DNA from: a virus
DNA: 28,201 nucleotides
Direction: 5' to 3' (one strand)
IMG/VR virus record: IMGVR_UViG_3300035698_009858
Span: 1 to 28,201 of that record
Both the position numbers and the translations under genes were made by a program. Below are positions 1 to 26,968 of the stretch, in pieces; position 1 is the stretch's first letter; each line of letters starts with the position of its first letter. A model generated the notes under the pieces. That model did no database searches. It was not told the DNA's origin and saw nothing but the letters and a program-made list of their open reading frames with translations.

Positions 1-318
1 ATTTTGAGAGCAATTGGGTTGTTAGTAAGTCGTTCATATTCTTCACAAACAGACTGAATCTCTTCTTTAGAAGGAGCAGAAGAGAGGATCATGCCGTCAA
101 AGCTGAAGACATGAGTCGTGTAGCCCAGCGTTTTGAAGATTTGTGACAGAGCAGCCACCTTCTCGGTCTCCATTGCGAAGAGGATGTGAGCCAATTTCTT
201 GCCCCATGCGGCTACTTGTCTATAAGGCAGAGAGGCGGTCTGGGGAATCTTGTTTGCGTATTTTTTGATGATGTTCTGTACGTTCTTCAATTCAGAGATT
301 GTCTGCTTTGCACCAAAA
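1..318. repeat. Left copy of terminal overlap repeat
   Basis: Seen directly: these 318 bases match 27884-28201 in the same orientation with 11 mismatches and no gap. Mismatches lie at 53-57, 59, 63, 68, 69, 152 and 209. The match starts at the first base and runs to the last base of the window, which is what a circular or terminally redundant genome gives. A true identical direct terminal repeat would show no differences, so the two ends probably come from different variants of the phage. It covers the 3' part of the TV-Pol-like gene. A real gene duplication is possible but would not normally reach both window ends on one diagonal. Confidence 0.85.
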
Positions 319-1052
319 ATGAGAGCCAAGAACTGTGTCTTTGTGATTCCCATCTCTAAGAGGATGCCTTTGCTGTTGACGTATTCTTCAATAAGAGCGA
401 TGTCTTCATCATCCGCACCGATTCTCTTCAACCAAACAATCAAGTCAGTAGGAACGGAGTTCACGACATCAACATCAGCATAACCGCTGTCACCAAAGAT
501 GATGCTTCTGTATTCCTTCTTCAGTCCTTGAATTGATGGTCCCATTGCAAATAGACGACAACGACCGTTGCTCGTGTCATAGCGTTCGTAGAGGATGTCG
601 TCCTTGATGTTGCGAGCCAGCTCAAGAATAATCGCTGAACCTGCAATGTCACCCATCTTGCGAGCCTTCTTCAGTGCCTTGCGAAAGAGAGCTGGATTGA
701 CTGGAATCGCCTTTTCTATGACTGATTTGCCTGAACGACGTCGGGTGTCAATAACGTCTTCGACCTTGATGTCTTGTAGTAGAGAGTTGATGTACTGCTC
801 AGCACCTTCACGAACGCCGTACATGCGAGTGAAAGAGAAATCAGACTGGAACTTGTGCTCATCATCAATAACGTAGAAGAGCGCTTCAAAGATTTCTTTG
901 TCACCAAGGTGTCGAATGCATGAACGAGCATTGACTGAGTCTGCTTTGTCGTTGAGCTTATGAGCTTTGCGACTAGCCAATACAGTCGAAGCCTTGACAA
1001 CTGTTACATCATCAAGGCTTCGAAGAATGTTTGTTGTGGAAAGTGTGAGCAT
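1..1052 (-). CDS. TV-Pol / superfamily-A-like polymerase, 3' end cut by window edge
   Basis: Likely the phage replication polymerase. My translation from ATG at 1052-1050 (GGGAG upstream) is open to base 1; joined to the right end of the window it becomes 355 residues. Three spaced motifs resemble superfamily-A polymerase motifs. Motif A-like YADVDVVNSVP spans residues 191-201 (acidic D193, D195, then N198 and P201). Motif B-like KTQFLALIFGAK spans 238-249. Motif C-like FSFDGMIL spans 316-323 (D319). This D-x2-N-x2-P, K...FGa, FDG pattern is what I recall for TV-Pol, the compact family described from mobile elements, phages and the Sputnik virophage and suggested to have both primase and polymerase activity. 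No 3'-5' exonuclease domain fits in this length. The N-terminal 185 residues are unrecognised. It heads a minus-strand cluster that includes the lysis genes. The motif reading is by eye, so family membership is an inference. Confidence 0.5.
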   Translation of the reverse strand, partial: MLTLSTTNILRSLDDVTVVKASTVLASRKAHKLNDKADSVNARSCIRHLGDKEIFEALFYVIDDEHKFQSDFSFTRMYGVREGAEQYINSLLQDIKVEDVIDTRRRSGKSVIEKAIPVNPALFRKALKKARKMGDIAGSAIILELARNIKDDILYERYDTSNGRCRLFAMGPSIQGLKKEYRSIIFGDSGYADVDVVNSVPTDLIVWLKRIGADDEDIALIEEYVNSKGILLEMGITKTQFLALIFGAKQTISELKNVQNIIKKYANKIPQTASLPYRQVAAWGKKLAHILFAMETEKVAALSQIFKTLGYTTHVFSFDGMILSSAPSKEEIQSVCEEYERLTNNPIALK

Positions 1053-1242
1053 CGACTTTCTCCCGTTGGGCTGGCGGCAACGGTACCAGCCGATGCTCCT
1101 ATAGATTATATATGGCCTAGCACTCTAAGTTATGAAATTTTGTGCTTTTATTTGCATTTGTACATGCGTTCAATTTGCATCAGAAGAGAATAAAAGCGCT
1201 CTCTATGTATGCGAATATTTGCTCAACTTCCTATTTAGCAAC
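1053..1242. promoter_or_regulatory. Divergent intergenic region with TATA-rich core
   Basis: This gap separates the minus-strand polymerase-like gene from the plus-strand nuclease-like gene and so must hold the signals for at least one of them. An AT-rich stretch, TATAGATTATATATGG, lies at 1100-1115. A loosely similar TATAG...ATATATA stretch occurs at 8869-8883 ahead of the coat gene. No convincing -35/-10 pair could be assigned. An alternative in-frame ATG for the nuclease gene sits at 1132 without a ribosome binding site. Confidence 0.3.
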
Positions 1243-1866
1243 ATGACCAAAAACAAGTTCGCCTCTGATCTCAACCGAAGCCGCCCATCTGTCAACCTGA
1301 CTGCTAAGAATCTGTGTCGCTTAGGTTATGTAGCGCGCGTAGACGAAACTGAACCAGACCTCGGTCGCCACGACCCTGACATTTATACACAGAAATATGG
1401 CTTCGAAGTCAAGGAAGACAAACTTTCAGAAAAGCCTGCGTATGCATCACCCATCATCAAGGGTAAGCACTGCATCTTCTTTGAGAGAGCAGCATTGACT
1501 GACGGCAGTCGAGACGGCTCCGACTTCGTCGTCTATTATGATTGGTCGCCTGATTCCCAGGGTGTGCATGTCCTTCACATCAAGACATTGCTCAAAGAAC
1601 TCCCTGATCTCAGCGGCACCTGGAAATGCGGAAATGCTGGAGATGCACGCTACAGACGTGGCGACTCCAATCCTGGCTGGGTGGTTCCCATTGCTCTGCT
1701 TGATGGACTTCGAGGCAACGTCACACATGCATTAGTAGACGCTGAATGGGTGTCATCATGGACAGAATTAAAGTCTGAACTGAAGCAAAAAGATGCTGCA
1801 CGCAGACGTCGAGAGCATAAAGAACTAGCTCCTCTCAGGTCTGCCTATGCTCGGATGCGAAGTTGA
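1243..1866 (+). CDS. Probable PD-(D/E)XK-fold endonuclease
   Basis: The product is 207 residues from the ATG at 1243. The frame stays open back to an ATG at 1132, but neither start has a strong Shine-Dalgarno site, so the N-terminus is uncertain. The segment HDPDIYTQKYGFEVKED (residues 43-59) has the core of the PD-(D/E)XK nuclease fold: P45-D46, eight residues, then E55-V-K57. It is followed by FFERAALTDGSRDGSDFVVY (79-98), which mirrors the conserved strand-loop-strand seen after the catalytic site in phage endonucleases and resolvases. The C-terminal 40 residues are highly charged and rich in Arg and Lys. Its role could be Holliday-junction resolution, host DNA breakdown or restriction-like cleavage; the sequence does not decide. 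It converges with the small minus-strand gene ending at 1916. Confidence 0.45.
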   Translation: MTKNKFASDLNRSRPSVNLTAKNLCRLGYVARVDETEPDLGRHDPDIYTQKYGFEVKEDKLSEKPAYASPIIKGKHCIFFERAALTDGSRDGSDFVVYYDWSPDSQGVHVLHIKTLLKELPDLSGTWKCGNAGDARYRRGDSNPGWVVPIALLDGLRGNVTHALVDAEWVSSWTELKSELKQKDAARRRREHKELAPLRSAYARMRS

Positions 1867-2395: not shown

Positions 2396-2641
2396 TTAAT
2401 CTGGCATCACCACATCAGACAACAGGTCGATGCAATCGTTCAGCTCATCCAAGCTCTCGCTGTTTTGGTGAACGAATCGAGACATCTTGTCCCATGCTTC
2501 TTGAGGAGCTTCTCCGTCTTGCTCAATCCAGCGGAAGTATTCGAGCGCCTCGTCTAGAGCATAGTTGTTCTTCAGCATGTCTTCAAGACAGGAGATGAGC
2601 ATCTCGGTGTCAGCATAAATTAGGTCGGTGTCTTTAATCAT
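2396..2641 (-). CDS. Hypothetical acidic helical protein
   Basis: The product is 81 residues from the ATG at 2641, strongly acidic and predicted mostly helical, ending LLSDVVMPD. I recognise no family. The ATG overlaps the stop of the upstream gene by 8 bases, and AAGGA just before it serves as the ribosome binding site, so the two are translationally coupled. An in-frame start further upstream (2686) would overlap the neighbour more and is less likely. Its stop overlaps that of the convergent zinc-knuckle gene. A role as a small host-takeover protein is possible but unsupported. Confidence 0.6.
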   Translation of the reverse strand: MIKDTDLIYADTEMLISCLEDMLKNNYALDEALEYFRWIEQDGEAPQEAWDKMSRFVHQNSESLDELNDCIDLLSDVVMPD

Positions 2642-3230
2642 TGTCCTTGTCCGTTCTGAATAGCTGGTAGCTTTGTACTCCAGCATGTACTCTTATTCTT
2701 CTGAGCATAGTGTGTTTGCGGGTATAAAAGGTTTGCTTATTGGGCGTCGTCCCTGGTTCCCAAGGAGCGTATTCCCAGACTGATCTTACGCCTGGTCTCA
2801 GCTCTCCATCTACTCTTAGTTGTTCTTTAGTAGGTAGGATGTTGAACATGGTGAGAACAATGTATTTGTCGAAAGGAGTAGCACTATGTCTCAACCACTC
2901 AGCTAACGACTCGATCGGATCCGTTATGTCTGGTATGTGAATCCATTTGTCTTCGAGCCAGTGAACAAACATGCTCTTAACGATGGAGTGCCAAATTTTC
3001 GTCTTCTCTATAGTGCTGTCGATTGATTCAATCTGTTTCAACCGTTCAGCATAGAATGTAGCACTGGCTAAACTTAGATTCTCTCTCTGAGTAGAACCCT
3101 GAAAGAGCTGACCAATCTTCTCGTGGAACATCGCGAACTCCTTCGCGTCCGATCTGTTCAGGTGTCGAGAGTAAGACCCAGCAACACCGCCATAGCGACT
3201 TAGTAGAATAGCTAATCGTTCTTTTGTCAA
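2634..3230 (-). CDS. Hypothetical protein, first gene of minus-strand pair
   Basis: The product is 198 residues if translation starts at the TTG at 3230, which has AAGGAAG at proper spacing. A GTG at 3248 would add six residues but has no binding site. The N-terminus is basic and helical (MTKERLAILLSRYGG), the middle is rich in aromatic residues (FVHWLEDKWIHIPD), and the C-terminus is basic (KHTMLRRIRVH). It has no recognisable domain. It diverges from the terminase genes across a 14-bp palindrome and is coupled to the 81-residue gene. Its position beside packaging genes suggests an early or regulatory role, but this is speculative. Confidence 0.6.
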   Translation of the reverse strand: MTKERLAILLSRYGGVAGSYSRHLNRSDAKEFAMFHEKIGQLFQGSTQRENLSLASATFYAERLKQIESIDSTIEKTKIWHSIVKSMFVHWLEDKWIHIPDITDPIESLAEWLRHSATPFDKYIVLTMFNILPTKEQLRVDGELRPGVRSVWEYAPWEPGTTPNKQTFYTRKHTMLRRIRVHAGVQSYQLFRTDKDND

Positions 3231-3255
3231 CGTTGCTTCCTTTTGCACCGAGTAA

Positions 3256-3554: not shown

Positions 3555-5057
3555 ATGAAGCGTGCACTCCCTAAGAGAATTCAAGACATTCTTGATGACG
3601 GCCTTGCCTTCATCTCACGCCTGAAGATTGTCAACAAAGAAGGAAAACTAGTTCCACTCAGGCCCAATGCTGAGCAGCTTAAGATGTTTGAGTTGCTCGA
3701 GACTGGAGAGGACGCAGTCTTCGGGAAGCCCCGACAAATCGGATCCTCTACCTTCATGTCAGCGTACCTATTCTGGAAATGGCTGACAGCAACAGATCCT
3801 GTCAACATCGCCATCCTGTCCAAAGACTGGGACTCTACGCTACACATCTTCGGAATGTGGAGGACGTTCTATGAGAATCTACCAGTGCCGCTACGCTTTA
3901 AACTCGACAAATGCAACCAAACAATTATGCGAATCGCTGGTACCCAGGCTACCGTTCGTGCCATCTCTTCCAAGAAGCCAGGTGCACTGCGGTCCTACAC
4001 ACAGACGTTCGTGCATCTCTCGGAGCTCGCCTTCACCGACAATCCCGAAGAAGTTCTCAGTACAGCTTATGCTGCTCTGAACGGGAATCAGCTTATTGTC
4101 GAGAGTACAGCCAATTTCTACAACGATGCAGTTCATCAGCTAATCATGAAGGCAGAGAGAGGAGAAGCTGCACTGAATCACACCTTCTTCTCATGGACAG
4201 AACACGAAGAGTACACTTCAGATGTGCCTGATTCATTCACAATGACTAAGCATGAGACGTCTCTTGGTTACACACCAGGACAGATTGCATGGCGTCGACT
4301 ACAGATTCAGAAGCATGGTCTAATCAAGTTCCAACGGGAATACCCAACGAGTGTAGAGGAAGCGTATGCTCAGACAGGTAACAGCTACTTCACACCTGAT
4401 GACCTTGAGAAGCTCACGATCATGCGTGTCGAACCTAAGCCGAAGATTTATTTGGCTGCTCCTGAAAAGGGTGAGTCATATGCCATCGGCTGTGATGTAG
4501 CCAGTGGTCGAGGTGGTGACTACTCTACAATTCTAGCTCTGAGCAAGGCATCGTACCAACCTGTTGCACTCTTTAAGAGCAACACGATTTCACCTGAGAT
4601 GTTTGCTCGTGTGATTCAGGAGTACTCAGCCAAGTATAATGACGCAAAAGTTCTTGTCGAGAGCAACAACTGGGGTCTTCCTGTCTTGAATGAGCTACGC
4701 AATCTAGGGTTCACGAATCTGTGGAAAGACGACAAGGGTCGTGATTGGGAAACAAACTCCAAGACTAAGCTGCTAATGTTCGAAGAACTACGTCAGGCTC
4801 TGAGAGAAGGAGTCATCCACCAACTCGACAACATCACACTTGGAGAACTGAGAAGCTACGTTCTGGACAGCAAGGGATTGGCACCTCACGTGCCGCCCAA
4901 TCTTCCACATCATGGTGACCTACCAATCGCTCTCGCTCTCGCTTACCAATGCCTCAAAACCGTTCGTCAAAATACACGTCATCTTCCAGACTGGATTCAT
5001 CAACAACGTGCAGCAGCTATTAAGAAAAACGGACCTGGAATGGGCAGACGCTACTAG
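3555..5057 (+). CDS. terL: Terminase large subunit
   Basis: This is the ATP-driven DNA packaging motor with headful or site-specific nuclease. The 500-residue length is normal. ATPase motifs are a Walker A-like GKPRQIGSST (57-66), a Walker B-like TFVHLSE (151-157, E157 catalytic) and the coupling motif VESTAN (182-187). The RNase H-like nuclease domain shows D314 in CDVASGRGGDYST, E369 in VLVESNNWG and D455 in HHGDLPIA, the expected three metal-binding acids. The start codon follows the previous stop immediately, with GGTGAAG upstream. It works with the portal encoded just downstream. All key residues are present, so it should be functional. Confidence 0.93.
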   Translation: MKRALPKRIQDILDDGLAFISRLKIVNKEGKLVPLRPNAEQLKMFELLETGEDAVFGKPRQIGSSTFMSAYLFWKWLTATDPVNIAILSKDWDSTLHIFGMWRTFYENLPVPLRFKLDKCNQTIMRIAGTQATVRAISSKKPGALRSYTQTFVHLSELAFTDNPEEVLSTAYAALNGNQLIVESTANFYNDAVHQLIMKAERGEAALNHTFFSWTEHEEYTSDVPDSFTMTKHETSLGYTPGQIAWRRLQIQKHGLIKFQREYPTSVEEAYAQTGNSYFTPDDLEKLTIMRVEPKPKIYLAAPEKGESYAIGCDVASGRGGDYSTILALSKASYQPVALFKSNTISPEMFARVIQEYSAKYNDAKVLVESNNWGLPVLNELRNLGFTNLWKDDKGRDWETNSKTKLLMFEELRQALREGVIHQLDNITLGELRSYVLDSKGLAPHVPPNLPHHGDLPIALALAYQCLKTVRQNTRHLPDWIHQQRAAAIKKNGPGMGRRY

Positions 5058-5069
5058 CCTATGTATAAT
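5041..5069 (+). promoter_or_regulatory. Candidate sigma70-type promoter for portal operon
   Basis: A perfect TATAAT (5064-5069) lies 17 bases after TGGGCA (5041-5046, four of six matches to the consensus -35), 41 bases before the portal start. It overlaps the end of the terminase gene. It suggests that a host-type RNA polymerase transcribes the structural genes, consistent with no phage RNA polymerase being seen. Confidence 0.4.
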
Positions 5070-5109
5070 CTCTCTGCTACAGCATACGTCTTAAGAAATC
5101 GGAGACACA

Positions 5110-6753
5110 ATGAGCAACCCTTCATCAATTAAACTAGTACGCGCTGCTCTCGAAGAGCACACCCATTTTTGGGACAAACTACGCCCGGACATGGAACGAC
5201 TAAACAACATGTACACGTCTCAGTTCTGGAAGTCAGAACCATGGTCTGACAGCATGATCCGACTCGAGCTTCCTGAAGGCTACGCTTTCATCGAAGGCTA
5301 CGTCGCATCTCTGTTTAGCAAGGCGCCTGCTGTGTCTGTTAGTTCAGACATTACTAGTGAGGGCGACGCTGACATTACGCGTGAAGTCGTTGACAGATTC
5401 CTATATGACACTCACAAAGAGTGCGAAGCAGCTACACGACAGGCTCTAATCTATACTCATTCGTTCCTTAAGCTTGCACCTCGTGTTTCTGACAACATCC
5501 TCGACATGATTGCACTGAGAGCTATTCCTCCCTGGGAAGTAATCCTTGACCGAGGAGCGATTCGCTTTGAAGACCAGCGCTTCACGGGCCATGTCTATTA
5601 CATGCCAATCTCTGATGCCAAGTCACGATGGGGTAGCAAGCGCTTCAAGGGAATCCCGAAGGAAGACTTCCTCAACAAGGCAGACAACAAGGGCTCGAGT
5701 ATTCCCAATGAGTTCCTATACATTCAGGTCGTCGAATTCTATAACATCACTGATGATGAGCTCTACTTCTGGTCGCCTCAATTCAAAAACGGTGATGATC
5801 TGCTAGAGAAGCTACCGATTCCTGTTCGCACTCATGATGACAAGCCTCTCCCTGCCCTGGCTCCCCTTTACTACGTGAGAAAGCCAGCGATTCCACTTGA
5901 GGGTCTGAGTTCGCTTGAACGTCAGTACGACATGTACAAAGAGAAGAATATTATTCGTTCGTTCTGGGCTAACTCCATTCGTGCTGACACTCGTAAGTAC
6001 TTGTACAAAGAGGGTTCCTTCGACGCTGAGCAGCGGGCTAAGCTCAGTTCTGGTGTTGAACAAGAACTGATTGGCGTAGACGAAGAGAGTCTAGATGGAC
6101 TGATCCTCCCTGTTCCCAACACATCAATCTCTTCCAATCACGACCGTTATATGGCGCGCATCGATGATGACCTTGCCAAGGGCTCAGTCATGGCGCCATT
6201 CACTCGAGGAGAAGGCACAAAGGGAGCAACAGCAACCGAAATCCGTGCCATGTACGCTTACTCATCTTCAGAAATCGGTCGTCTCGCTCGTGAGCGTGAT
6301 GCAATGATTGAGAAGGTAGCAGAAATCTATACGAGAATGCTCGTTACTCTCATTGAGGACGAGGACGAACGTATGACGATTATAGTTGGAGGGAAACCAG
6401 AGTTTCTGACGATTGCTAAGCTAGACGGTAAGTTCAAGTTCCAAGCACTCGACATGGCGTCCACGCCTCTTGCCGAAGAGATGAAGCAAAGGAGCTTCCT
6501 TGAGCTGATTCCAGTACTGTCTAATCTCGGAATCACTAAGGACCAGATTAGAGAGCATCTTGTTTCTCTCTTTAGTGATGTCTTGCCAGCTTCTTGGGCT
6601 GAGGCCGTTGTCCCAGAACCACAGCCAGGCGCTCCTGCTGTAGGCCCAGAAACATTGAGAACTCCTGCTGCGTTACCACCTGAGCTGAGTTCTCAGGGTC
6701 CCCAGATTGGCAAAGACGGCCTCCCTATAATCCCTAATCCTGGAGAGCTCTAA
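5110..6753 (+). CDS. Portal protein
   Basis: The dodecameric portal sits at one capsid vertex and carries DNA in and out. The product is 547 residues, starting at an ATG with GGAGA upstream, right after the large terminase. The N-terminal part (FWDKLRPDMERLNNMY, then SLFSKAP) and the central segment GEGTKGATATEIRAMYAYSS, followed by a long helix with ARERDAMIEKVAEIYTRML, follow the pattern of podovirus/P22-like portal proteins, whose stem helices follow a TATEI-type motif. The C-terminus is rich in proline and glycine (about the last 50 residues), which is common in portal barrels or tails. Family call by order, size and this motif. Confidence 0.82.
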   Translation: MSNPSSIKLVRAALEEHTHFWDKLRPDMERLNNMYTSQFWKSEPWSDSMIRLELPEGYAFIEGYVASLFSKAPAVSVSSDITSEGDADITREVVDRFLYDTHKECEAATRQALIYTHSFLKLAPRVSDNILDMIALRAIPPWEVILDRGAIRFEDQRFTGHVYYMPISDAKSRWGSKRFKGIPKEDFLNKADNKGSSIPNEFLYIQVVEFYNITDDELYFWSPQFKNGDDLLEKLPIPVRTHDDKPLPALAPLYYVRKPAIPLEGLSSLERQYDMYKEKNIIRSFWANSIRADTRKYLYKEGSFDAEQRAKLSSGVEQELIGVDEESLDGLILPVPNTSISSNHDRYMARIDDDLAKGSVMAPFTRGEGTKGATATEIRAMYAYSSSEIGRLARERDAMIEKVAEIYTRMLVTLIEDEDERMTIIVGGKPEFLTIAKLDGKFKFQALDMASTPLAEEMKQRSFLELIPVLSNLGITKDQIREHLVSLFSDVLPASWAEAVVPEPQPGAPAVGPETLRTPAALPPELSSQGPQIGKDGLPIIPNPGEL

Positions 6754-6754
6754 G

Positions 6755-6940
6755 TTGCCAATCTACGTAATGAAATGCACAGAGTGCGAGAACAAGTTCG
6801 AAGTTCTTAGGCGGATTAGAGACAGAAACACTGTCATTGAGTGCAGTGAATGTCAAGCACCAATGAAAAATGTCCCTGCTGTGTCTGCTTTTCGCGTGAA
6901 GGGGTATAGTTACGCTAACGGGTACAGCAAAAAGGATTGA
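6755..6940 (+). CDS. FmdB-like zinc-ribbon protein 1
   Basis: The product is 61 residues from the TTG start at 6755, with GGAGAG before it. Two CxxC pairs (CTEC near residues 8-11 and CSEC near 31-34) form a zinc ribbon of the kind found in FmdB-type regulatory proteins. MPIYVMKCTECENKFEV is typical of that N-terminus, and the tail is basic. Such genes occur in phage head modules, but their role is unclear; a chaperone or assembly role would fit the position between portal and scaffold. It is followed one base later by a second zinc-ribbon gene, which suggests an old duplication. Confidence 0.7.
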   Translation: MPIYVMKCTECENKFEVLRRIRDRNTVIECSECQAPMKNVPAVSAFRVKGYSYANGYSKKD

Positions 6941-6941
6941 G

Positions 6942-7379
6942 ATGCCACTCTTTGACTACATCTGCACTGAATGCTCACACACCACTGAGGAACTCTTCAG
7001 TGTTCATGAAGAAAAACCCACCTCTATTGAGTGCGAGAAATGCGGAAAGGATGCAATCTTCATCTTCCCAATGATTGCTCGTACATCTGGTCGTTGGGGT
7101 GACTCTAATGCTCACTTCGACTCAGGTCTGGGCACATACGTAGAGAACTCCATGCACAAAGAGCAGATCCTAAAGGAACGCGGCTTGGTCTCTGAGTCTG
7201 ACATGGGTAGTCACTGGCACGAAGACAGAGCAGAAGGTATTAAAGACGCCGACAAGAAAGAAGAGCAGCTGTACAATACTTACAATGCGAACATAAAAAA
7301 GAATCACGGTGACACGATGCAGGCTAGTATAGAAACCTTCCCTGCTCACGACATTATTGAAGGAAAATTTGACGATTAA
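6942..7379 (+). CDS. FmdB-like zinc-ribbon protein 2 with extension
   Basis: The product is 145 residues. The first 45 repeat the zinc-ribbon pattern of the preceding gene (CTEC near 8-11, CEKC near 31-34, MPLFDYICTECSHTTEE), so the two are probably duplicates. Unlike its neighbour it carries a long hydrophilic extension containing GRWGDSNAHFDSGLG, where a virion or assembly partner may bind. The start lies one base after the previous TGA. The function in phages is unknown; an assembly factor is an inference from position. Confidence 0.68.
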   Translation: MPLFDYICTECSHTTEELFSVHEEKPTSIECEKCGKDAIFIFPMIARTSGRWGDSNAHFDSGLGTYVENSMHKEQILKERGLVSESDMGSHWHEDRAEGIKDADKKEEQLYNTYNANIKKNHGDTMQASIETFPAHDIIEGKFDD

Positions 7380-7388
7380 GGAGTCAAC

Positions 7389-7892
7389 ATGCCCGCACAA
7401 GTCCTAACACCCGAAGAGCTAGAGCTACAAGAAGCTTCAGAAGACGCAGTGACAGAAGAGGATGCACTATTTGCTGAGATGGCGCCTGTTGGTGACTTCT
7501 CTGTTCGTAGCATGCGAATCCTTGTCAAGGCTCTCAATAAGGTGCTTCCATTGTTTGACCTTCCCGTAATGGAAGAGTACAAAGAAGACGTCGACAGTCT
7601 ACCCGTAGACTTGACACGCGTCCTCAGCATGATTAGTCAGTCTACACTTGATGCGTCAGCACGGGAAGACATCGAAGCCGAGCTTCAGTTTAGCTTGGAT
7701 GACATTACATCTGATGCTGATTTGAAGGTGCTCAGTGGTAAACTGGAGTCTCTGAGTAAGAACAAGGACTTTAAGAAGTTCCTCAAGGAACCTGCTCCTG
7801 AAGCGGCCGAAGTCGTAGACGCTACCGAAGACGACGCGACTGGCGAACCGACTGAAGCTCAGATTGACGAGCTCTTCTCCCAACGATTCTAA
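7389..7892 (+). CDS. Hypothetical acidic protein of head region
   Basis: The product is 167 residues, highly acidic at both ends (many Glu/Asp in 1-30 and 130-160), with a central helical part (VRSMRILVKALNKVLPLF). The start is preceded by AAGGAG. No family recognised. Its position just upstream of the scaffold candidate suggests a head-assembly helper, such as a co-scaffold or minor head protein. The same acidic style is shared with the next gene. Confidence 0.65.
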   Translation: MPAQVLTPEELELQEASEDAVTEEDALFAEMAPVGDFSVRSMRILVKALNKVLPLFDLPVMEEYKEDVDSLPVDLTRVLSMISQSTLDASAREDIEAELQFSLDDITSDADLKVLSGKLESLSKNKDFKKFLKEPAPEAAEVVDATEDDATGEPTEAQIDELFSQRF

Positions 7893-7935
7893 TAAGAACA
7901 TTTGACGACAACCCAAACAAGGACAGACAAACAAC

Positions 7936-8817
7936 ATGACCGGCCCAGCTATTGAAACTGCTGTTGTAGACAGCACCACTTCAGATTCAACTTCCGTAGA
8001 CACCACATCAAGCACAGATTTAGAAGTTGCCGACAGCGCAGCCTTTGATTCTGGTACAAATGATGACGCAAGCGCTGATGAACTAGGCAACACCGATGAT
8101 GAGTTCACCATTGATGACTTGCTAGACGCAGACTTCTCAGAATACGAAGAGTTTGCTGACGACGTGAATCACAAGGGAATGCGACCCCTCAAGGAGTTGA
8201 TGCAGCACATCACACCCGATGCTCGTAAGCACGTCGCTAATATGCGCTCCATGATGACACGCAAGACACAAGAGGTTGCTGATCTGCGTCGACAATTAGA
8301 GACAGAGCGCGACCAACTGAAGTCTGAGCGTGAAGCGCTGTACAGCGGCGACTTTGCTAAGCATATTAATGAAACAGCTGCTGAGCCTGAGACACCTCAT
8401 GACCTGTTCGACGAAGAGGGAATGTCTGCCAAAATCAAGCAAGAAGCTGCTCTGATGTTCCAGAAGATGATTCAGCCAATGCAAGAGGAAATGGAACAGA
8501 AGGAACAGAAGACCAAGCTTCGTGCTTTCGAATCCGAAAATCCACTGATGACTGATCCAGCGTTCAGGATTAAAGTGTTCACGCTATTAACAGAACGCCC
8601 AGAGTTGAAGCCGCAGGATGCGTTCTACATTCTCAAGGGTAAGCTTGATGCTTCAGCTAATGTTGAAGCTGAGACTGCTCGAAAGGCAGAGCGCTCTGCG
8701 CGCCGTGATGCACTGAAGCGTACTACTGTCGGGAGCACTAGCTCTGCTAACGGTACACCAAAGTTCAAGAATGGTTGGGAAGCATACCAGTACCACAAGA
8801 CCAACGCATCCTCCTGA
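7936..8817 (+). CDS. Probable scaffolding protein
   Basis: Scaffolds direct coat assembly and leave before maturation. The product is 293 residues: a low-complexity acidic N-terminus rich in Ser, Thr and Asp (1-70), a charged coiled-coil-like stretch (about 100-140, TQEVADLRRQLETERDQLK), a Met/Gln/Glu helix (about 165-195) and a basic C-terminus (ARKAERSARRDALKRT). A basic helical C-terminus that binds coat protein is characteristic of P22-type scaffolds. It lies immediately before the coat gene, the usual place. The ribosome binding site is weak (AAGGAC at long spacing). Sequence identity to a known scaffold is not claimed. Confidence 0.72.
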   Translation: MTGPAIETAVVDSTTSDSTSVDTTSSTDLEVADSAAFDSGTNDDASADELGNTDDEFTIDDLLDADFSEYEEFADDVNHKGMRPLKELMQHITPDARKHVANMRSMMTRKTQEVADLRRQLETERDQLKSEREALYSGDFAKHINETAAEPETPHDLFDEEGMSAKIKQEAALMFQKMIQPMQEEMEQKEQKTKLRAFESENPLMTDPAFRIKVFTLLTERPELKPQDAFYILKGKLDASANVEAETARKAERSARRDALKRTTVGSTSSANGTPKFKNGWEAYQYHKTNASS

Positions 8818-8963
8818 TGCTTCGTGAGTTTCTAGAAAAAATGCTGTACGTAGAGAAAAAGACGATTTATAGTGCATATATAAATTTGATGGGGCTCGAA
8901 AGAACAACCTCTCCAAACGCGACAACATACATCGAAGAAGCTGATTCCACGGAACACCAGTGA
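8817..8963 (+). CDS. Possible small coupled ORF before coat gene
   Basis: An ATG overlapping the scaffold stop (TGATG at 8815-8819) opens a 48-residue frame. It is helical at the start (MLREFLEKMLYVEKK) and acidic at the end. The overlap would allow translational coupling, but there is no ribosome binding site of its own and no recognised family. It fills most of the 200-base gap before the coat gene, which otherwise would hold only an AT-rich stretch (8865-8885) that might be a promoter. Confidence 0.35.
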   Translation: MLREFLEKMLYVEKKTIYSAYINLMGLERTTSPNATTYIEEADSTEHQ

Positions 8964-9017
8964 CGATGACGACGAACCTAACCTATTAGTCATCAACTAC
9001 ATACACTGGAGAAACCG

Positions 9018-10028
9018 ATGGCCATCTCAAACGAACTGCTCGCTAGCACACTTTACACGATTCTCAGCGAAGAGAAAGACGCGCTTTACCAAGCAACTCC
9101 TTTCATGGACTGGGCACGCAAGCTCGGCGGAATTATGACCGAAGACGGCGGAACAAAGATTATTGTTCCAGTCGGCCTCGAAGAGCATAGCTCATTGACA
9201 GCACATGCAACTGGTTGGGAACCTGTGGCGATGGCGTTCAACGACGTTATGCAGCCTGCAGAGTACCAATGGGCTGACTTCTCAGCTCCAATCGGCATCA
9301 CCAAGAAAGAAGAGCTCGAGAACTCCGGTGAGAAGGCCCAGGTCAAAATCATCGAAGTCCGCGCGCGCAACGTCATGTCCATGGCAAAGCGTCAGATCAA
9401 CACTCAGATCCTTGCTGGTGCCGGTCTCGGTGGCCTAGAAACTCTGAATGGTGAAGCTTCGGCGACTGGTTTCATGGAAGCCGGCGCTCCTGCTGCAGCT
9501 ACCCAGACCAACACGATTGGTGGAATCACTAAGTCTACTGTAGACGCCGTCGGTTGGTACAACCAGTACCAGACCACAGCTTCTGCCTTCGGTACTTCTG
9601 GTATGCGTCTGATGCAACAGCTCGTCAACACTTGCAATGCTCGCGCACAGAAGGGTCAAGTTAAGCTGACCATTATGTCCGAAGCTGGCTACGCTAACTA
9701 CCGGCGTGCGCTGTTCGCTAACGAACGCTACATCGACGAGAAGGTTCTGGACGGTGGGCGTCTGGCACTGGCCTTCGCTGGTGGAGTCATCGAGCAAGAC
9801 CTCGCGATGCCAACCAACACTGGTGTGGGTACTGATGAAGCTACTGCTTACCTCCTGAACTTCGACTCCCTGAAGCTGGCCGTCCATAAGGATGCCGATT
9901 TCAACGTGAGCCCATTCATGGAAGTTCCTGGAACAACCATTCGCGCTGCTACTCTCTACTGGAAGGGTCAGCTGATTGCTGAGCATCTTGGTAGTCTTGG
10001 CCTGCTCGCTGATGGCGACACCTGGTAA
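9018..10028 (+). CDS. Major capsid protein (HK97-fold type)
   Basis: The main shell protein. It has 336 residues and a strong ribosome binding site (GGAGA). It shows the pattern of phage coat proteins of this size. An N-terminal helix leads into FMDWARKLGG, followed by a beta stretch TKIIVPVGLEEHSSL. GWEPV and AEYQWADFSAPIGITKKEE then lead into the long spine-like helix AQVKIIEVRARNVMSMAKRQ (about 115-134) and a Gly/Ala/Thr-rich loop (140-175). Position after the scaffold, and codon usage that looks richer in C-ending codons than the neighbours, fit a highly expressed coat protein. An intrinsic terminator follows directly. The exact family is not resolved by eye. Confidence 0.85.
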   Translation: MAISNELLASTLYTILSEEKDALYQATPFMDWARKLGGIMTEDGGTKIIVPVGLEEHSSLTAHATGWEPVAMAFNDVMQPAEYQWADFSAPIGITKKEELENSGEKAQVKIIEVRARNVMSMAKRQINTQILAGAGLGGLETLNGEASATGFMEAGAPAAATQTNTIGGITKSTVDAVGWYNQYQTTASAFGTSGMRLMQQLVNTCNARAQKGQVKLTIMSEAGYANYRRALFANERYIDEKVLDGGRLALAFAGGVIEQDLAMPTNTGVGTDEATAYLLNFDSLKLAVHKDADFNVSPFMEVPGTTIRAATLYWKGQLIAEHLGSLGLLADGDTW

Positions 10029-18672: not shown

Positions 18673-21600
18673 GTGGCTACGCTAACTCAAGAAGAAATTA
18701 AGCGCTTACTTGGTGATGACTATGTCGACCCAACTGTAAAAGCTGGGCGACAAGAGACCACCCAAGAATCTCGTGAACTGAAGCTGACTGAGGAAACACA
18801 GACGCTGTTTGGAGCTGAAGATGACGCTGTCCGACAAGAAGGGCTTCGTATTCTCTTGGAATCTACTGAGCCTATAAGCAATGAAGAGATTCTTCTAAGA
18901 GCACGAACAAAGCTCGGCTCTGCTTACGGAAAGCCGCTAGTTCCTGGTTTCGAGAAAGAGGAATTCCCTAGTTCTCTCGTTCTTCCTGAGCCTGCTACGC
19001 CTGAAGAGACTGGCTTAGGTGCAGCATTTCGTCCACAGATCAGAGCAGGTTCTGCTGCTCAGCGTGATTTTGAGATTCAGCGTGAAGCAGAGATTGGTGC
19101 ATCCCGTGTCTTCCCTGGTATTGATGAGTCGAAGCTTGCTGACATGTCGCCAGAAGAGCAGTCAGACATCAGGGTTTATTACTCTGGTGCTGGAGCTGCA
19201 TGGGAAGCGCTTGCCAAGGAAAACCCGCAAGCCTCTGGCGAACAGCTCTCTGCTCTGCTCGAAGATGAGCTTGAAACAATTGAATCGAATCTGTCCGGCG
19301 AGGGCGCTCGCATTAAGCAAACGCTCAGAATTGCTGGACCACAAGTTCCCGGTTCTCTTGCTTTTAAGCCACAGGTTACATCAGCTGAGATTCCAGATTT
19401 GTCTCCTGCACAGAGGGAATTCCTCAGAGCATCAACTCAATCAAAGGCAGACATAGAGATTCCCAACATCATCAGCGATGTGCGTGAGAACTTCAAAGTA
19501 GAAGTAGAAATGGCGGACCCAACGGGTGGCGCAATTACCCAGATGCGCCCGCCATCAGAAGAGGAGATGCAAGCAGAGATTCAGAAGCGCATCACCAAGA
19601 TTACGGATCTGCCTTGGTGGGCAACGGCGGAAAAAGAAAAGACTCTTGAAGCAATGGAGCCACGCACCACATTCACGGGCGGAAAGGTTTACCCAACTGG
19701 TGCAACTGTTGAGTCTCCCGTTTCATGGTTGTTCAGGAGTGCTTTGTCTCCCCTCAATGCTGCTACAGCACTCGGCTTCGCTGGTCTGGAAGCAACTGGC
19801 TTGACTCCTCTCAGAGAGAAGGTGCGTCAAACACGTCCCGAAGGGTACAGAGAGAAGGGTGTCATCGTCGACATGGCTGACGCTGTTGCTCGAAACCGCT
19901 CAGGAATGGCTGAAATCGGTGAGATGTGGGACGTCTCGACAAATGAATCGATTCGTAAAGCAGCACCCATTGGTTATGGTGCTGGCTTCGTTCTTGACCT
20001 CCTGGTTCCCATCGACCTGGGTGCAGCTGAAGTCATTAGAGCTGGAAAGACCGGACTCAACGTGTCTCGCGTAACCAAACAATTAACTGGTGCTTCTGAC
20101 TGGAACTCAGCATTCAAGCTAGCAGGTAAGCAGCTAGTAAGCGATGTCCCTGTTCTCAGAAATGCTGTCAAGAATTCTGGAGATTTCCGTGTCTTCATGA
20201 GCGCTGAAGCTGGTCGTACACTGACTGGTTACCGTGTCCTCAAGGAAGCAACTGAAGCTGGTGATGATTTTGTTACTGCTTTGGGTAAAGTCATCGATGA
20301 AGTCGGAGAAGGATCCTCCTTCGTCAAGGCTGCTCGTAAATCAGGAAGCGCTGAGCGCATTCTCGCTGACCTCACTTCTTCTGTCAAAATGTCTCGTTAT
20401 GTAGATGACCTTGATTCAACGCTTCGTGCAGTAGCTAGACACGCCAAGGGTGAAGTTGATGCTGTGACGTCTGTCAAGGACATGACGCGTTGGGTCCGAG
20501 TCATTGCTAAGGGTGATTCTAGTATTGAAGCGCTACTCAAGGGGAAGCACGGCCTTCGTCCGATGCTCAATGCTATTCTCGAAAACCCGCAGGCAAGTAA
20601 GCTTCTGAGGAAACAAATTGCTTGGGAGCGCGGTGCTGAAGTGATTGCAGAGATGACTGGTAGCTGGCGTGGAATCGCTAAGAACTTAGTCATGGTAACA
20701 CCCAGGACCTGGGCAACTGCTGACCAGGTGCCGGAGATTCTTAAGAGAGCACATGATTCCGCTATTGGGAAGATGTCAGATGAACTTAAGAATAAAACTG
20801 TCTCTTCTGCGCTTGGCGACAGATCTGTCAGGTCTGGATGGAAGTTGTCTTCCGGTGAGTCGAAACAATTGTCTGATCTAGTCATTAGTCGTTACTCTCG
20901 TACCGGATTGCTGAGTGCTGGCGATTCGCGTGTTGTTTTGAAAGAGCTCGGTAATGGATTTCTGTCAACAAATTCTTTGCGCTCCATTGTGGGTGCCGAA
21001 ATCGACCTCGCTGCTCAGGCCATGAAGAAAGGTTTCGGATTGAAAGCTGCTGAGCGTCTTGAGCCGATTGTGCAAAAGGAGCTGCTTGCTCCAATGGAAG
21101 CTCGCAGTCTAACGTCTGGCTTCTTTAAGCGTCACTTCGTTGAGAAGTTTGCTGAGACTCCTGTTGCAGAGAAGGGACTGTCACTCAATGCTCAAAAGGA
21201 ATTGCTCAACCTTCGTAGAGGAATCGCTTCCCTTGACAAGAAGCTCAGAGCAGATGTAAGTCGTCTGCGCACAAAGGGTTCCGAATTCAGGAAGCTCTAC
21301 GGAATCGACCCTGATGTTGCTCTCAGTGCTGAAGATGCAACGATTCACATTCTTATGGGTCCTGATGCTCCTCGAGCAATGGGCGCCACTAGATCTGCAA
21401 GCCTCAAAGCACGCGAAGTAGCACACAAAGAGATGATGGAAACAATTCTCGATTTCTATGTACTCTACATGAAGAAGACTCCGTCAATCGGCGACATCTT
21501 CCGTCCTGCTACATTCGTTAAGAGCGAAACATTCTTGAGCGACGCGGGCCAGGATGCAATGCAAGGAATAGTTTCAGAAGCTAGAAAACGATTGACTGTT

Positions 21601-23844
21601 GTTCGCAATGGTCGCGTTAGCAATGTTTCCCCTGATGTCTTCAGGAGTGTTGTCAACGATTTCCTTGCTGATGTCAGACTCGTTGTCAGGACCCCAAGGA
21701 ATCTGAGCAAGGATGTTCTTGTTGATCAGATTTCTACTCTAGGCTCTAAGCACACTGAGGACATGCTTGCGACGGTGTTCTACCAAACAGAAGCACGACG
21801 TGCTGCCGACCAGGCAATTAGGAACATCATCCGTCAGGATGACATCATCACTGGCTCCCCTAAGATTGGTCTGAAAGATTACCCGCGTGAATACAAAAAC
21901 CTAAGAAAAGCGCTTGGCATGGATGGAGACTACATTAGTGCAATGGAACGTCTCATTGTTTCAAGGGGACAAACACAAGTCGCAGATGTTGCTGAATTGG
22001 GAACTACTCTACGTCGTGGCTTTGATGCAGAAACAGAGTGGATGACAGCTATTCGAGCCATCGCTCCGGATGCCACTGATGCTCAGATTCAAGCAGTAAT
22101 GAAGAGCAAAAGCCATCGCATCAGAATTGGAGAAATGACTATTGTGTCTGATGACACCATCGAACAGATCATTCGTCGCAACGGCATGGCTGCAGAAAAT
22201 CTGTCTCAAATGCTCGAGGGAATGGCAAAGACTCTTGAGACTACCATCGTTACGGGTCGTGTCACGGAAGAACTGTCTGAAGCTGCTCTGGGTCGCGTCA
22301 ATGCTCAGCTCATCAATGATTCTGTTGGCGAAGCAACGAACTTGACGCGCCTCTCCAAGTACATCGAAGGTCTACACAAGACAAAGGACGGAGGAAGAGT
22401 TCTCCCAATGATGCTCTTTGGATTCCGTCGCATGCAGTCTTTCCGTTACAACTTGATGCTCGGTTGGCGTCCTCGCTTCCACGGAAACAATACGATTACT
22501 GCTCCAACAGTCATTCAGCAAACACTGGGTGGTGAACTTGCTCTTCGTACAGCTAACCCAGTGTCGTACGCTAAGGCTGCTGACGTCATGGCTACAAATC
22601 GTTTGAGAGCTGGAGGAACTCGAACTCACAAGATTGCTTTGGTCGACAAGGCTGGGCGGATCTGGACATATGGTGATGTCTACCAGACTGCCATCGAAAG
22701 TGGCGCAATGCGTTCACGTCAGTCGTACCAGATTAATCAAGCACTAATTGATGGCTCCATCAACGAAGCTAAAATCAGAATCAAGGATGTCAAGGTCAGG
22801 AGTCAAGTCATTGGACAACTGACTGGTCCGCCGAAAAAGGTGAATGACTTCGTTCTAGAAATGGCTGAAATCGAAGACAACGTCTGGCGCATGGCTGTCA
22901 TCCTTGACTCCTTGCGCATTGGCGAAGACATTTCTGTAGCCATTCAGAAGGGTCGAATCTCCATGTACGACTATGGTGCACTGACTCCCTTTGAGCAACG
23001 ATTCGCATCTCAGCTTCTTATGTTCTACACATTCTCTCGAATCAATGTTACGCATACACTGAACAACTTGTTCCATCATCCGAATCGTGTCAAGAACGCT
23101 CTTGTTCTGAAGCGTGACATCACTAAGCTTGTTGCTGGTCAGGATGCTGATGACTTGATGTACTACGCACCAGACTGGATGATTAGTCGTCCGATTCTCA
23201 ACTTCTCTAAGGGTGTTGACAAAGAGACTTACTACACAGTGGGTCCTGGTGTTGTCCCAGCTGAAGGCGCAGCAATGGTTGCTGAGGCGTTTCTTGCAGC
23301 AGCAACTCTTGACATCACAGAAGGTGCCTCGGTTGTTGTTGACATGCTTAGCCCAGAGCTCAAGATTATTCTTGGTACTGGCGAGCAGTGGGGTGCCCGT
23401 AAGGGCGTCATTGATCCGCGTGACGTAGCAATGCTTCACACACTCGGTGCTTGGGGTGTATTCCAGACAATGATTGGCGAAGAAGCTGTTGGTGTAGATC
23501 CGAAGGTAGATGAGTCGACATTCAATGGTCGGCGCTGGGTCCTCTCAGACAAGGCATGGGCGAAGTACCGCAAGCTCAAGGGAGTCTCTGATTATGTCGG
23601 TGCAACTACAGTGACTAGTGATGCAACCAAGGCAATCACAACCGTATACCAATCGATTTCTGGTGATGAATCTGTTGCTGGACGTATGCTCACCCTGGGT
23701 GCTGGCGAAGGCGCAATCCCTGCTGGTCTTGAGTTCATCGGTGCAACCACTCCAATCGGCGGCATCACTTCTGAGCAAGAGCTAGAATTCGGTATTCGTC
23801 AGCGTCAACGTGAGCTAGAGGAATACAAGCGGCGGACGCAATGA
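18673..23844 (+). CDS. Giant internal virion protein (1723 residues)
   Basis: This is the largest gene, 18% of the genome, starting at GTG with GGAGAG upstream. Large virion proteins of this sort are injected with DNA in podoviruses (T7 gp16-like). Most of the protein is helical and hydrophilic. A conserved-looking C-terminal part contains FRYNLMLGWRPRFHGNN (1257-1273) and ALTPFEQRF...FYTFSRIN (1436-1458). These resemble the 'N-terminal Asn ... P-F-Y-T-F/W-x-R-x-N' core that recurs at the C-terminus of very large phage and mobile-element polyproteins. No transglycosylase, protease, RNA polymerase or nuclease motif could be seen. It sits last in the ejection gene set and is followed by a hairpin-rich gap. 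Confidence 0.65.
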   Translation: MATLTQEEIKRLLGDDYVDPTVKAGRQETTQESRELKLTEETQTLFGAEDDAVRQEGLRILLESTEPISNEEILLRARTKLGSAYGKPLVPGFEKEEFPSSLVLPEPATPEETGLGAAFRPQIRAGSAAQRDFEIQREAEIGASRVFPGIDESKLADMSPEEQSDIRVYYSGAGAAWEALAKENPQASGEQLSALLEDELETIESNLSGEGARIKQTLRIAGPQVPGSLAFKPQVTSAEIPDLSPAQREFLRASTQSKADIEIPNIISDVRENFKVEVEMADPTGGAITQMRPPSEEEMQAEIQKRITKITDLPWWATAEKEKTLEAMEPRTTFTGGKVYPTGATVESPVSWLFRSALSPLNAATALGFAGLEATGLTPLREKVRQTRPEGYREKGVIVDMADAVARNRSGMAEIGEMWDVSTNESIRKAAPIGYGAGFVLDLLVPIDLGAAEVIRAGKTGLNVSRVTKQLTGASDWNSAFKLAGKQLVSDVPVLRNAVKNSGDFRVFMSAEAGRTLTGYRVLKEATEAGDDFVTALGKVIDEVGEGSSFVKAARKSGSAERILADLTSSVKMSRYVDDLDSTLRAVARHAKGEVDAVTSVKDMTRWVRVIAKGDSSIEALLKGKHGLRPMLNAILENPQASKLLRKQIAWERGAEVIAEMTGSWRGIAKNLVMVTPRTWATADQVPEILKRAHDSAIGKMSDELKNKTVSSALGDRSVRSGWKLSSGESKQLSDLVISRYSRTGLLSAGDSRVVLKELGNGFLSTNSLRSIVGAEIDLAAQAMKKGFGLKAAERLEPIVQKELLAPMEARSLTSGFFKRHFVEKFAETPVAEKGLSLNAQKELLNLRRGIASLDKKLRADVSRLRTKGSEFRKLYGIDPDVALSAEDATIHILMGPDAPRAMGATRSASLKAREVAHKEMMETILDFYVLYMKKTPSIGDIFRPATFVKSETFLSDAGQDAMQGIVSEARKRLTVVRNGRVSNVSPDVFRSVVNDFLADVRLVVRTPRNLSKDVLVDQISTLGSKHTEDMLATVFYQTEARRAADQAIRNIIRQDDIITGSPKIGLKDYPREYKNLRKALGMDGDYISAMERLIVSRGQTQVADVAELGTTLRRGFDAETEWMTAIRAIAPDATDAQIQAVMKSKSHRIRIGEMTIVSDDTIEQIIRRNGMAAENLSQMLEGMAKTLETTIVTGRVTEELSEAALGRVNAQLINDSVGEATNLTRLSKYIEGLHKTKDGGRVLPMMLFGFRRMQSFRYNLMLGWRPRFHGNNTITAPTVIQQTLGGELALRTANPVSYAKAADVMATNRLRAGGTRTHKIALVDKAGRIWTYGDVYQTAIESGAMRSRQSYQINQALIDGSINEAKIRIKDVKVRSQVIGQLTGPPKKVNDFVLEMAEIEDNVWRMAVILDSLRIGEDISVAIQKGRISMYDYGALTPFEQRFASQLLMFYTFSRINVTHTLNNLFHHPNRVKNALVLKRDITKLVAGQDADDLMYYAPDWMISRPILNFSKGVDKETYYTVGPGVVPAEGAAMVAEAFLAAATLDITEGASVVVDMLSPELKIILGTGEQWGARKGVIDPRDVAMLHTLGAWGVFQTMIGEEAVGVDPKVDESTFNGRRWVLSDKAWAKYRKLKGVSDYVGATTVTSDATKAITTVYQSISGDESVAGRMLTLGAGEGAIPAGLEFIGATTPIGGITSEQELEFGIRQRQRELEEYKRRTQ

Positions 23845-26096: not shown

Positions 26097-26276
26097 AATA
26101 GCTTTGTTGTCACACATAATGTTCTCTTCTAGTTTGGTAAGAGCAAGAGATTGCTCTCTACTCTTGGGACTTAGAAGCACAATCAGATCAGCAAGGTGCT
26201 TCGCTATTTCACGAAGAGTGTTGACTTGTTCGATCTGAATGTCGTTGAGTGGGACTGAATCAAATGCTGTAGTCAT
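26082..26276 (-). CDS. Acb2/Tad1-family anti-defence protein candidate
   Basis: The product is 64 residues, all helical. Residues 35-62 (LSPKSREQSLALTKLEE, then NKAISR) match the signature I recall for the Acb2/Tad1 hairpin family (S-R-E-x-S-L-A-x-T-K-L-E-E, then a short spacer and AI). Known members bind the cyclic nucleotides made by CBASS or Thoeris and so act as sponges that protect the phage. A Trp often found after the LEE segment is replaced here by Cys-Asp (IMCDNKAI), which could affect ligand choice. Its ATG overlaps the endolysin stop (ATGA). The family call is by eye, and which signal is bound is unknown. Confidence 0.6.
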   Translation of the reverse strand: MTTAFDSVPLNDIQIEQVNTLREIAKHLADLIVLLSPKSREQSLALTKLEENIMCDNKAISRAL

Positions 26277-26968
26277 GATGTGAATTCCCTGGGTAGTGCG
26301 GCTTTGATTGCTTCAAAGATGAAGTCAGATTCAGCGCCTTGTGTGCATGTGTCTGACATGAAGCGAGCGTCCTTGTAGTTGCTCATAAATCCAATCTCAG
26401 TTGTAATGGCTGGCATCTTAGTCTTTGTCATCATCGACCATTCTCTCTTTACTAGACAGGAAGCGGGTCGTTCGGGCCACTTAGCCCACGATTCATCGAT
26501 GCGCTTGGCATGAATGTTTGTAGCAATCTCATGTGAGCGGTACGTCTGAGCAAAGACTCCAGCAATGCGTTCAGACTCTGAGCCAGCGTTGGTTCCGATT
26601 CCAAACATGGCACCTGAAGTGTTGTTGCCCTCGCCGCGTCCCGTGTTGCTAGAATCTAGCAGGTTATGATGAATCGACACCATAAGCGTAATCCCATGAG
26701 CCTCGTTAACGTTCCGTATACGCTGATTCAGGGAAACGTTGTCTTCTGTTAGTCCATGGGTGAGGAGAATCTTCTCATCGACAAATTCTCCAGACACCAC
26801 ATCGAAGACTCGAGTCTTGCATGACGTCGACAAAAGATTCATGACACGCTTAGCAATTTGTCTGTTGACCAACCATTCATCGACTGTGAAGTCGTCATGG
26901 TTGCTGAACGTGTAATGCTTTATGCCTTTCTCAGGCAGCCCATGTCCAAAATCTATTGCTAACGTCAT
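26273..26968 (-). CDS. N-acetylmuramoyl-L-alanine amidase (Amidase_3), endolysin
   Basis: Cuts the amide bond between muramic acid and the peptide of peptidoglycan to release progeny. 231 residues, single domain, no signal peptide. Amidase_3 landmarks are AIDFGHG (4-10, zinc ligand H9), VDEW (E31, second zinc ligand), the NQRIRNVNE helix, SIHHN (99-102, H100 zinc ligand), and TTEIGFMSN (189-197, E191 catalytic). All expected residues are present. It begins with an ATGA overlap on a 47-residue gene and ends overlapping the Acb2-like gene. Cytoplasmic location means it relies on a holin to reach the wall. Confidence 0.9.
   Translation of the reverse strand: MTLAIDFGHGLPEKGIKHYTFSNHDDFTVDEWLVNRQIAKRVMNLLSTSCKTRVFDVVSGEFVDEKILLTHGLTEDNVSLNQRIRNVNEAHGITLMVSIHHNLLDSSNTGRGEGNNTSGAMFGIGTNAGSESERIAGVFAQTYRSHEIATNIHAKRIDESWAKWPERPASCLVKREWSMMTKTKMPAITTEIGFMSNYKDARFMSDTCTQGAESDFIFEAIKAALPREFTS

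Follow-up and report, generated by a model that had tools for sequence, protein, structure and literature searches.

The question raised by this locus is what a single, small polymerase does in a tailed phage that has no other recognizable replication enzyme. The window, by which we mean the whole 28,201-nucleotide stretch analyzed here, is an IMG/VR virus record of a 28-kb uncultured tailed phage. An earlier sequence-only reading had noted a minus-strand gene of 355 residues joining both contig ends, likened its product to TV-Pol, and suggested that it might be a minimal one-protein replication module. Joining the ends and translating across them confirmed the gene. On the minus strand, the first part of the gene (1–1052) encodes residues 1–350, in a frame that begins at 1052, is open over positions 3–1052 with zero internal stops, and runs on across the contig join. 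Five more residues are gained when the ends are joined, giving 355 in total, with a stop at 27,868. At the other end of the window (27,868–28,201, minus strand), the 3' part of the gene occurs again, with these last five codons and the stop, positions 27,868–28,200 encoding residues 246–355.

The two ends overlap imperfectly over 318 bp (1–318 and 27,884–28,201), with 11 mismatches, nine of which lie within one 17-bp block (53–69). Because the ends overlap in this manner, with the mismatches mostly in one block, the window is probably a circularly permuted genome of ~27,883 bp that was assembled from two variants. The two copies of the polymerase gene differ at 6 of 105 residues, and the motif residues are untouched. 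The block itself (53–69 and 27,936–27,952) belongs to the part of the polymerase gene that encodes residues close to the C-terminus, and possibly represents two recombined strain variants or a hypervariable spot.

The motif A-, B-, and C-like segments of the sequence-only reading are present as described, at residues 191–201, 238–249, and 316–323. Motif A, YADVDVVNSVP (Y191–P201; 450–482, minus strand, as for all positions in this paragraph), contains the candidate catalytic aspartate D195, and motif C, FSFDGMIL (F316–L323; 84–107), contains the second candidate, D319. Both palm aspartates were invariant in a 7-protein alignment (A11) and in a 12-protein alignment. Between them lie the fingers segment or motif B, KTQFLALIFGAK (K238–K249; 306–341), located by alignment of TV-Pol relatives, and E295 in KKLAHILFAMETEK (168–170), which aligns with the LAHIL-x-G-x-E of the bacterial TV-Pols L241 and L242. 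Ahead of motif A is an element bounded by R166 and Q175 (528–557), both invariant in A11 and kept by almost every protein of the 12-protein alignment, in which the conserved columns included those of R166, Q175, D195, K238, a glutamate near E295, D319, and G320. Based on this pattern, we take R166, Q175, D195, K238, and D319 to be equivalent to R573, Q582, D610, K663, and D785 of Taq polymerase. In addition, F246-G247, at positions +8/+9 from K238, matches the YG that follows K663 of Taq. Family-A DNA polymerases have a steric-gate glutamate five residues after the motif A aspartate; the window residue at that position (D195+5) is a valine.

The fingers of the window protein are shortened, and the 12-protein alignment was ambiguous there when a conserved fingers aspartate was sought. 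Of the RxxxK signature of the fingers, K238 is kept and the arginine position is occupied by M234. This arginine is also absent in gp30 of the Microcystis phage Ma-LMM01 and in L241, L242, and L238, and is present in L040, L029, and L243. Because of the M234 replacement, we filed the window protein as a divergent relative of TV-Pol, set apart from the canonical members. TV-Pols have, ahead of motif A, a beta-hairpin bearing an arginine that is absolutely conserved (PMC2579912). R166 aligns with the conserved arginine of the relatives and would be the residue meant there, presumably on such a hairpin.

Searches of Pfam, PHROGs, NCBIfam, and PDB sequences with the polymerase returned nothing significant, as did searches of the PDB with profiles A5 and A8, and the protein had no match to Pfam DNA_pol_A. 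There was also no confident match to an unrelated family, so that the sequence-only reading was not refuted on this point. A weak PHROGs match was to phrog_34692 (E = 0.028), the family containing Ma-LMM01 gp30, and tblastn against phages found only the Microcystis phages Ma-LMM01 and MaMV (E 0.6–0.9). No relative was found by tblastn against plasmids or by a single-protein scan of viral contigs, and a scan of viral and genome contigs with a motif A DNA pattern found only L033, the rest being chance matches. With plain phmmer, the window protein recovered L033 among the ORFs of its phage clade (E = 0.0013), along with LMM01-type proteins at E 0.002–0.005 (0.0046 for gp30 itself). A profile of phage proteins searched against ~400 genomes from the phylum of a Comamonadaceae MAG found two proteins, and one further round found three others. 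These bacterial homologues have YDI..C and HDG/HDA motifs. Genes for serine recombinases or P4-type integrases lie close to three of them, and the surroundings of another one include a tyrosine-recombinase-like gene together with a large helicase-like gene; these gene identities were assigned by eye, and one recombinase zinc ribbon was confirmed by Pfam. Such recombinase/integrase islands match the published context of TV-Pols (PMC2579912).

To link the window protein to this set, we used a profile of five bacterial and four phage proteins (Ma-LMM01 gp30 and those of three clade phages) and searched 16,056 ORFs. It matched the window protein at E = 2.7e-7 (30.1 bits), in a test in which the window sequence was absent from the profile, yet which was not wholly blind because the relatives came from searches begun with the window. 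The match was retained when the profile was reduced by LMM01 (E = 6.1e-7) or by L033 (8e-5), with L015 also left out of both of these smaller profiles. Reversed ORFs scored at most 6.8 bits with the full window-free profile and at most 11.1 bits with any of the three, and the best of 1000 shuffles reached 6.6 bits with the full profile, versus 30.1 bits for the window protein. A profile of the bacterial proteins only recovered L033 (2.7e-8), L162 (5.4e-7), and LMM01 (7e-4) and did not reach the window protein directly, so the link between the window and bacterial proteins runs via the intermediates L033 and LMM01. Identity of the window protein to its relatives is ~20–24%. The set of relatives is tied to superfamily A by L040, from the same clade: this protein was matched by the window-free profile (7.9e-5) and also by Pfam DNA_pol_A, at an E of 1.3e-4 that falls short of the curated cut-off. 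Overall, the leave-one-out profiles, gp30, and the bacterial homologues in their islands support the earlier reading of the protein as TV-Pol-like, although as what appears to be a divergent variant.

A first structure prediction, from alignment A8, was discarded (pLDDT 35). The second model covers residues 120–350, was based on five distinct relatives in seven rows (two being overlapping copies of one protein), and was of medium confidence (pLDDT 58, pTM 0.53). The order of its elements fits a palm with inserted fingers: a predicted strand at 192–197 bearing D195, helices, a long helix, and a predicted beta-hairpin turning at F318-D319. This medium-confidence model also has helices at 121–133 and 136–152, ahead of the palm; the thumb of TV-Pols consists of two antiparallel N-terminal helices (PMC2579912). 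Foldseek ranked Taq polymerase first (E = 0.027), followed by mycobacterial Pol I, with E-values of ~0.03 that are below significance. VIA-align matched T7 DNA polymerase with a Z of 6.6 over 193 of 231 residues, and its top rows were a herpesvirus helicase-primase and B-family polymerases, with similar scores over ~130 residues. The model is therefore consistent with a polymerase palm, the subfamily being left undecided, and its palm-like arrangement, predicted at medium confidence, does not refute the sequence-only reading.

Two rival explanations concern the gene itself. That its motifs are coincidental, in an unrelated and mostly helical protein, might be argued from the lack of a curated family match and the weak confidence of the model, but we find it scarcely credible in the face of the leave-one-out E-values and shuffled controls, the preserved order of the conserved residues in phage and bacterial proteins alike, and the fact that the best structural matches were nucleic-acid polymerases. 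It is also very improbable that decay or mis-assembly accounts for the gene, which lies across the contig ends in two differing versions. The 318-bp overlap, with nine of its 11 mismatches in a 17-bp block, and the lack of one fingers residue of the family could be signs of this; however, both versions are open, the motif residues they cover are kept, and they differ at non-motif positions only, while in L033 the corresponding region has one intact polymerase gene of almost the same length.

Searches of Pfam and/or PHROGs with nearly all window proteins revealed no other polymerase, primase, helicase, SSB, or ligase, as the sequence-only reading had stated. Nor was there a Pfam VapE match, a D5 helicase, recombinase, or integrase (Pfam/PHROGs), or a convincing Walker A motif in the window. 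The divergently transcribed neighbor of the polymerase (1132–1866, plus strand), with HDPDIYTQKYGFEVK, is a possible PD-(D/E)xK nuclease by motif, its D-x8-EVK spacing being that of some members of a nuclease-like family of the clade. This family, with D-x(n)-E-[VI]-K, was found in 18 clade records, including phages without a visible polymerase; its profile, made from the relatives, did not score the 1132–1866 protein, and the putative nuclease is a lead only. Two small genes between it and the packaging genes (2396–3248, minus strand), encoding 96 and 204 aa, have no significant Pfam or PHROGs family, and no OB-fold SSB partner was recognizable. The large terminase (3555–5057, plus strand; phrog_2, E = 1.1e-29) opens the conserved head/tail block that defines the clade, and an Amidase_3 endolysin (26,273–26,968, minus strand; Pfam E = 1.9e-17) is downstream of the polymerase on the same strand. 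A promoter/terminator scan of the divergent intergenic region and Rfam and tRNA searches returned nothing. Elsewhere, two consecutive small genes in the head block (6755–6940 and 6942–7379) each begin with an FmdB-like zinc ribbon, and 18,673–23,844 encodes a 1723-residue protein with no Pfam or PHROGs family that has long counterparts across much of the clade.

Terminase and capsid searches placed the phage in a large clade of environmental phages that share head/tail gene order; no other phage record in the collection searched was closer to the clade than 22–24% capsid identity. Within the clade, TV-Pol-like proteins were found in the window, L033, G029, G002 (with its near-twin L014), L040, L029, and G042. 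These phages have the same head/tail block, with the polymerase gene lying in the stretch upstream of the terminase, and their polymerases share motifs at very low mutual identity. Some are short, as in the window (L033, 357 aa; L162/G029, 349 aa; L015/G002, 361 aa), and others are long (L040, L029, and G042; ~730–785 aa), with ~500 extra N-terminal residues and a gene for a UvrD-like superfamily-1 helicase nearby (4759–6249 in L040, 3045–5033 in L029, and 6605–8317 in L206, which belongs to G042). Two of the short forms have a small gene beside them that is possibly a homing endonuclease: a GIY-YIG nuclease gene (Pfam 1e-7) adjoins the polymerase gene in L162 (435–1109), and a short gene in L033 (3002–3376) is similar to it by eye.

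Other members of the clade have a different gene in this position. VapE primase-helicases were found in 9 of the 50 records searched, as well as in the fragments L121 and L146, and their genes sit in the slot ahead of a small gene and the terminase. These proteins, VapE-type helicases that also contain a primase part (VapE-like by Pfam, DNA primase by PHROGs), are unrelated to TV-Pol. In near-full-length records of the same layout (G006, G007, G031, G021, and G026, the first three with exact end repeats), neither TV-Pol nor VapE was visible. G010 encodes a Sak-like annealing protein. Comparison of gene content, as proposed in the sequence-only reading, recovered related TV-Pols in some members of the clade, and VapE or no polymerase in others; as most members lack the polymerase, we rejected the idea of a core gene conserved throughout the clade. 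From the near-full-length relatives of the same layout, which show no polymerase, it appears that these phages can rely on the host machinery for replication.

The two kinds of replication gene have been exchanged between close relatives. The terminases of L121 and G042 are 95.8% identical, and their DNA has 85% identity over ~11 kb, in a homology that sets in within the final bases of the L121 VapE gene. Beyond this boundary, on the upstream side, G042 has its TV-Pol gene, the UvrD-like helicase gene, and one more gene, so that the VapE gene of L121, a 13-kb fragment, stands where G042 has a TV-Pol module. The swapped stretches are 1–1899 of L121 and 4343–9123 of G042 (L206). A second, more distant pair (72.8%) is L146, with VapE, and L029, with TV-Pol. 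In a terminase tree, the TV-Pol and VapE labels were interspersed; the tree was read for neighboring pairs only, because it has long branches and many incomplete contigs.

The window gene, with its homology to TV-Pols, its intact catalytic residues, and no other replication gene beside it, and with relatives in which TV-Pols and primase-helicases are exchanged, encodes in our preferred reading a divergent TV-Pol-type polymerase of family A that stands alone, probably primes at initiation and leaves the host to finish replication. We hold this reading with moderate confidence. That the protein starts replication for the host to finish is suggested by the contents of the slot across the clade: other TV-Pols, a primase-helicase, or nothing recognizable. 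In this scheme, D195 and D319 would coordinate two metal ions in the palm, the fingers helix would bind the triphosphate through K238, and R166 and Q175 would lie at the template-primer; homology suggests these roles, with two-metal nucleotidyl transfer as the probable chemistry. Judging by gene context, the enzyme probably acts as a primase-polymerase at initiation and would synthesize a DNA primer or short tract at the origin of the phage, with the fork work (helicase, SSB, processive polymerase, ligase, and gyrase) likely supplied by the host.

Two other roles deserve consideration. It is unlikely that the protein is the main replicase, a single protein that would prime and copy the entire genome and need the host, if at all, only at the fork. 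The apparently complete genome without another polymerase, primase, or helicase is compatible with this, as is the primase plus polymerase activity proposed for TV-Pols (PMC2579912), but no helicase, exonuclease, or SSB was seen, and the near-full-length relatives without a visible polymerase indicate that bulk synthesis can fall to the host. For the same reason we favor initiation over full replication, the more so because the exchange partner is a primase-helicase and not a replicase, and because CcPol, one of the proteins listed as TV-Pols, acts as a primase together with its partner, MP (PMC7581432). The minimal one-protein module of the sequence-only reading was not borne out by these comparisons, and it is decidedly improbable that a 355-residue polymerase with no helicase, SSB, or other phage partner both primes and replicates a tailed-phage genome. 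An accessory role in repair, recombination, or gap filling, instead of initiation, also appears quite unlikely. The gene heads a leftward run with lysis-type genes (amidase) and not replication genes, and there is a precedent in divPolAs, divergent extra family-A phage polymerases of uncertain role (PMC11348598). However, divPolAs accompany a main polymerase, which the window does not have, and the related TV-Pols lie in the region that primase-helicases take up in sister phages.

Several points count against our preferred reading of a TV-Pol-type initiation polymerase. The protein has no direct match to a curated polymerase family, is only ~20–24% identical to its relatives, lacks the RxxxK arginine, and was missed by the bacterial-only profile, and the structural matches of its model (pLDDT 58) were below significance, with the top VIA-align rows lying outside the A family. 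With regard to initiation, the TV-Pols in the swaps are the 730–785-aa form beside a helicase and that of the window has 355 aa. With regard to priming, CcPol alone cannot prime and no MP-like partner was recognized in the window.

To our knowledge, CcPol is the sole TV-Pol that has been biochemically tested. This protein of SCCmec acts as a primase only with MP (PMC7581432). The CcPol-MP system and the PolA-SSB primases (PMC10061031) resemble the window protein, by description, in being small A-family polymerases of mobile elements with a proposed role in initiation; unlike the window phage, in which neither was recognized, CcPol has a co-encoded OB-fold partner and a helicase. TV-Pols were defined by Iyer, Abhiman, and Aravind in 2008 in viruses including Ma-LMM01, and many, but not all, occur with a D5 helicase, recombinase, or integrase, with standalone forms also listed (PMC2579912). 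Ma-LMM01 gp30 adjoins transposase genes, and since that context fits the LMM01 element described, we infer that gp30 is the TV-Pol gene meant in PMC2579912. The window protein has detectable homology to it and to other TV-Pols, with the arginine, glutamine, two palm aspartates, and fingers lysine in the same order, and like gp30 is a standalone protein in a tailed phage. It differs in its ~24% identity to gp30, in being ~150 residues shorter, in having FDG instead of HDG in motif C, and in the absence of a D5 helicase fusion, a linked recombinase, and the RxxxK arginine (the last also absent from gp30).

TV-Pols, their standalone forms, and their presence in a tailed phage are already known (PMC2579912), as is the in situ swapping of DNA polymerases in Caudoviricetes (PMC11348598). 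In those swaps, as in ours, a replication gene is replaced between close relatives with unchanged flanks, but between polymerase families or subfamilies, whereas here a TV-Pol plus helicase is exchanged for a primase-helicase in a clade of ~28–34 kb. What is new is that the only recognizable replication enzyme of a 28-kb phage is a TV-Pol-type protein that is reduced and highly divergent, and that TV-Pol modules are exchanged with primase-helicases inside one uncultured clade. The swapping known for phage polymerases is thereby widened to include primase-helicases as exchange partners. The case for TV-Pols as primases has so far been made mainly with gene-context arguments, CcPol alone appearing to have been tested and needing a partner (PMC7581432). 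The clade offers a natural comparison, in that nearly identical phages have either a primase-helicase or a TV-Pol and helicase in one slot, and the window has the reduced form with the polymerase alone. As the window protein is among the smallest and most divergent members seen here, it also helps to delimit the catalytic core. Finally, the 12-member TV-Pol profile picked up two bacterial proteins of 726 and 872 aa (L245, 682–2859, 8e-7; L246, 1–2616, 4e-5), which have a DMSSAHLALA-type motif A and QHDGVTI as motif C and possibly represent another polymerase branch.
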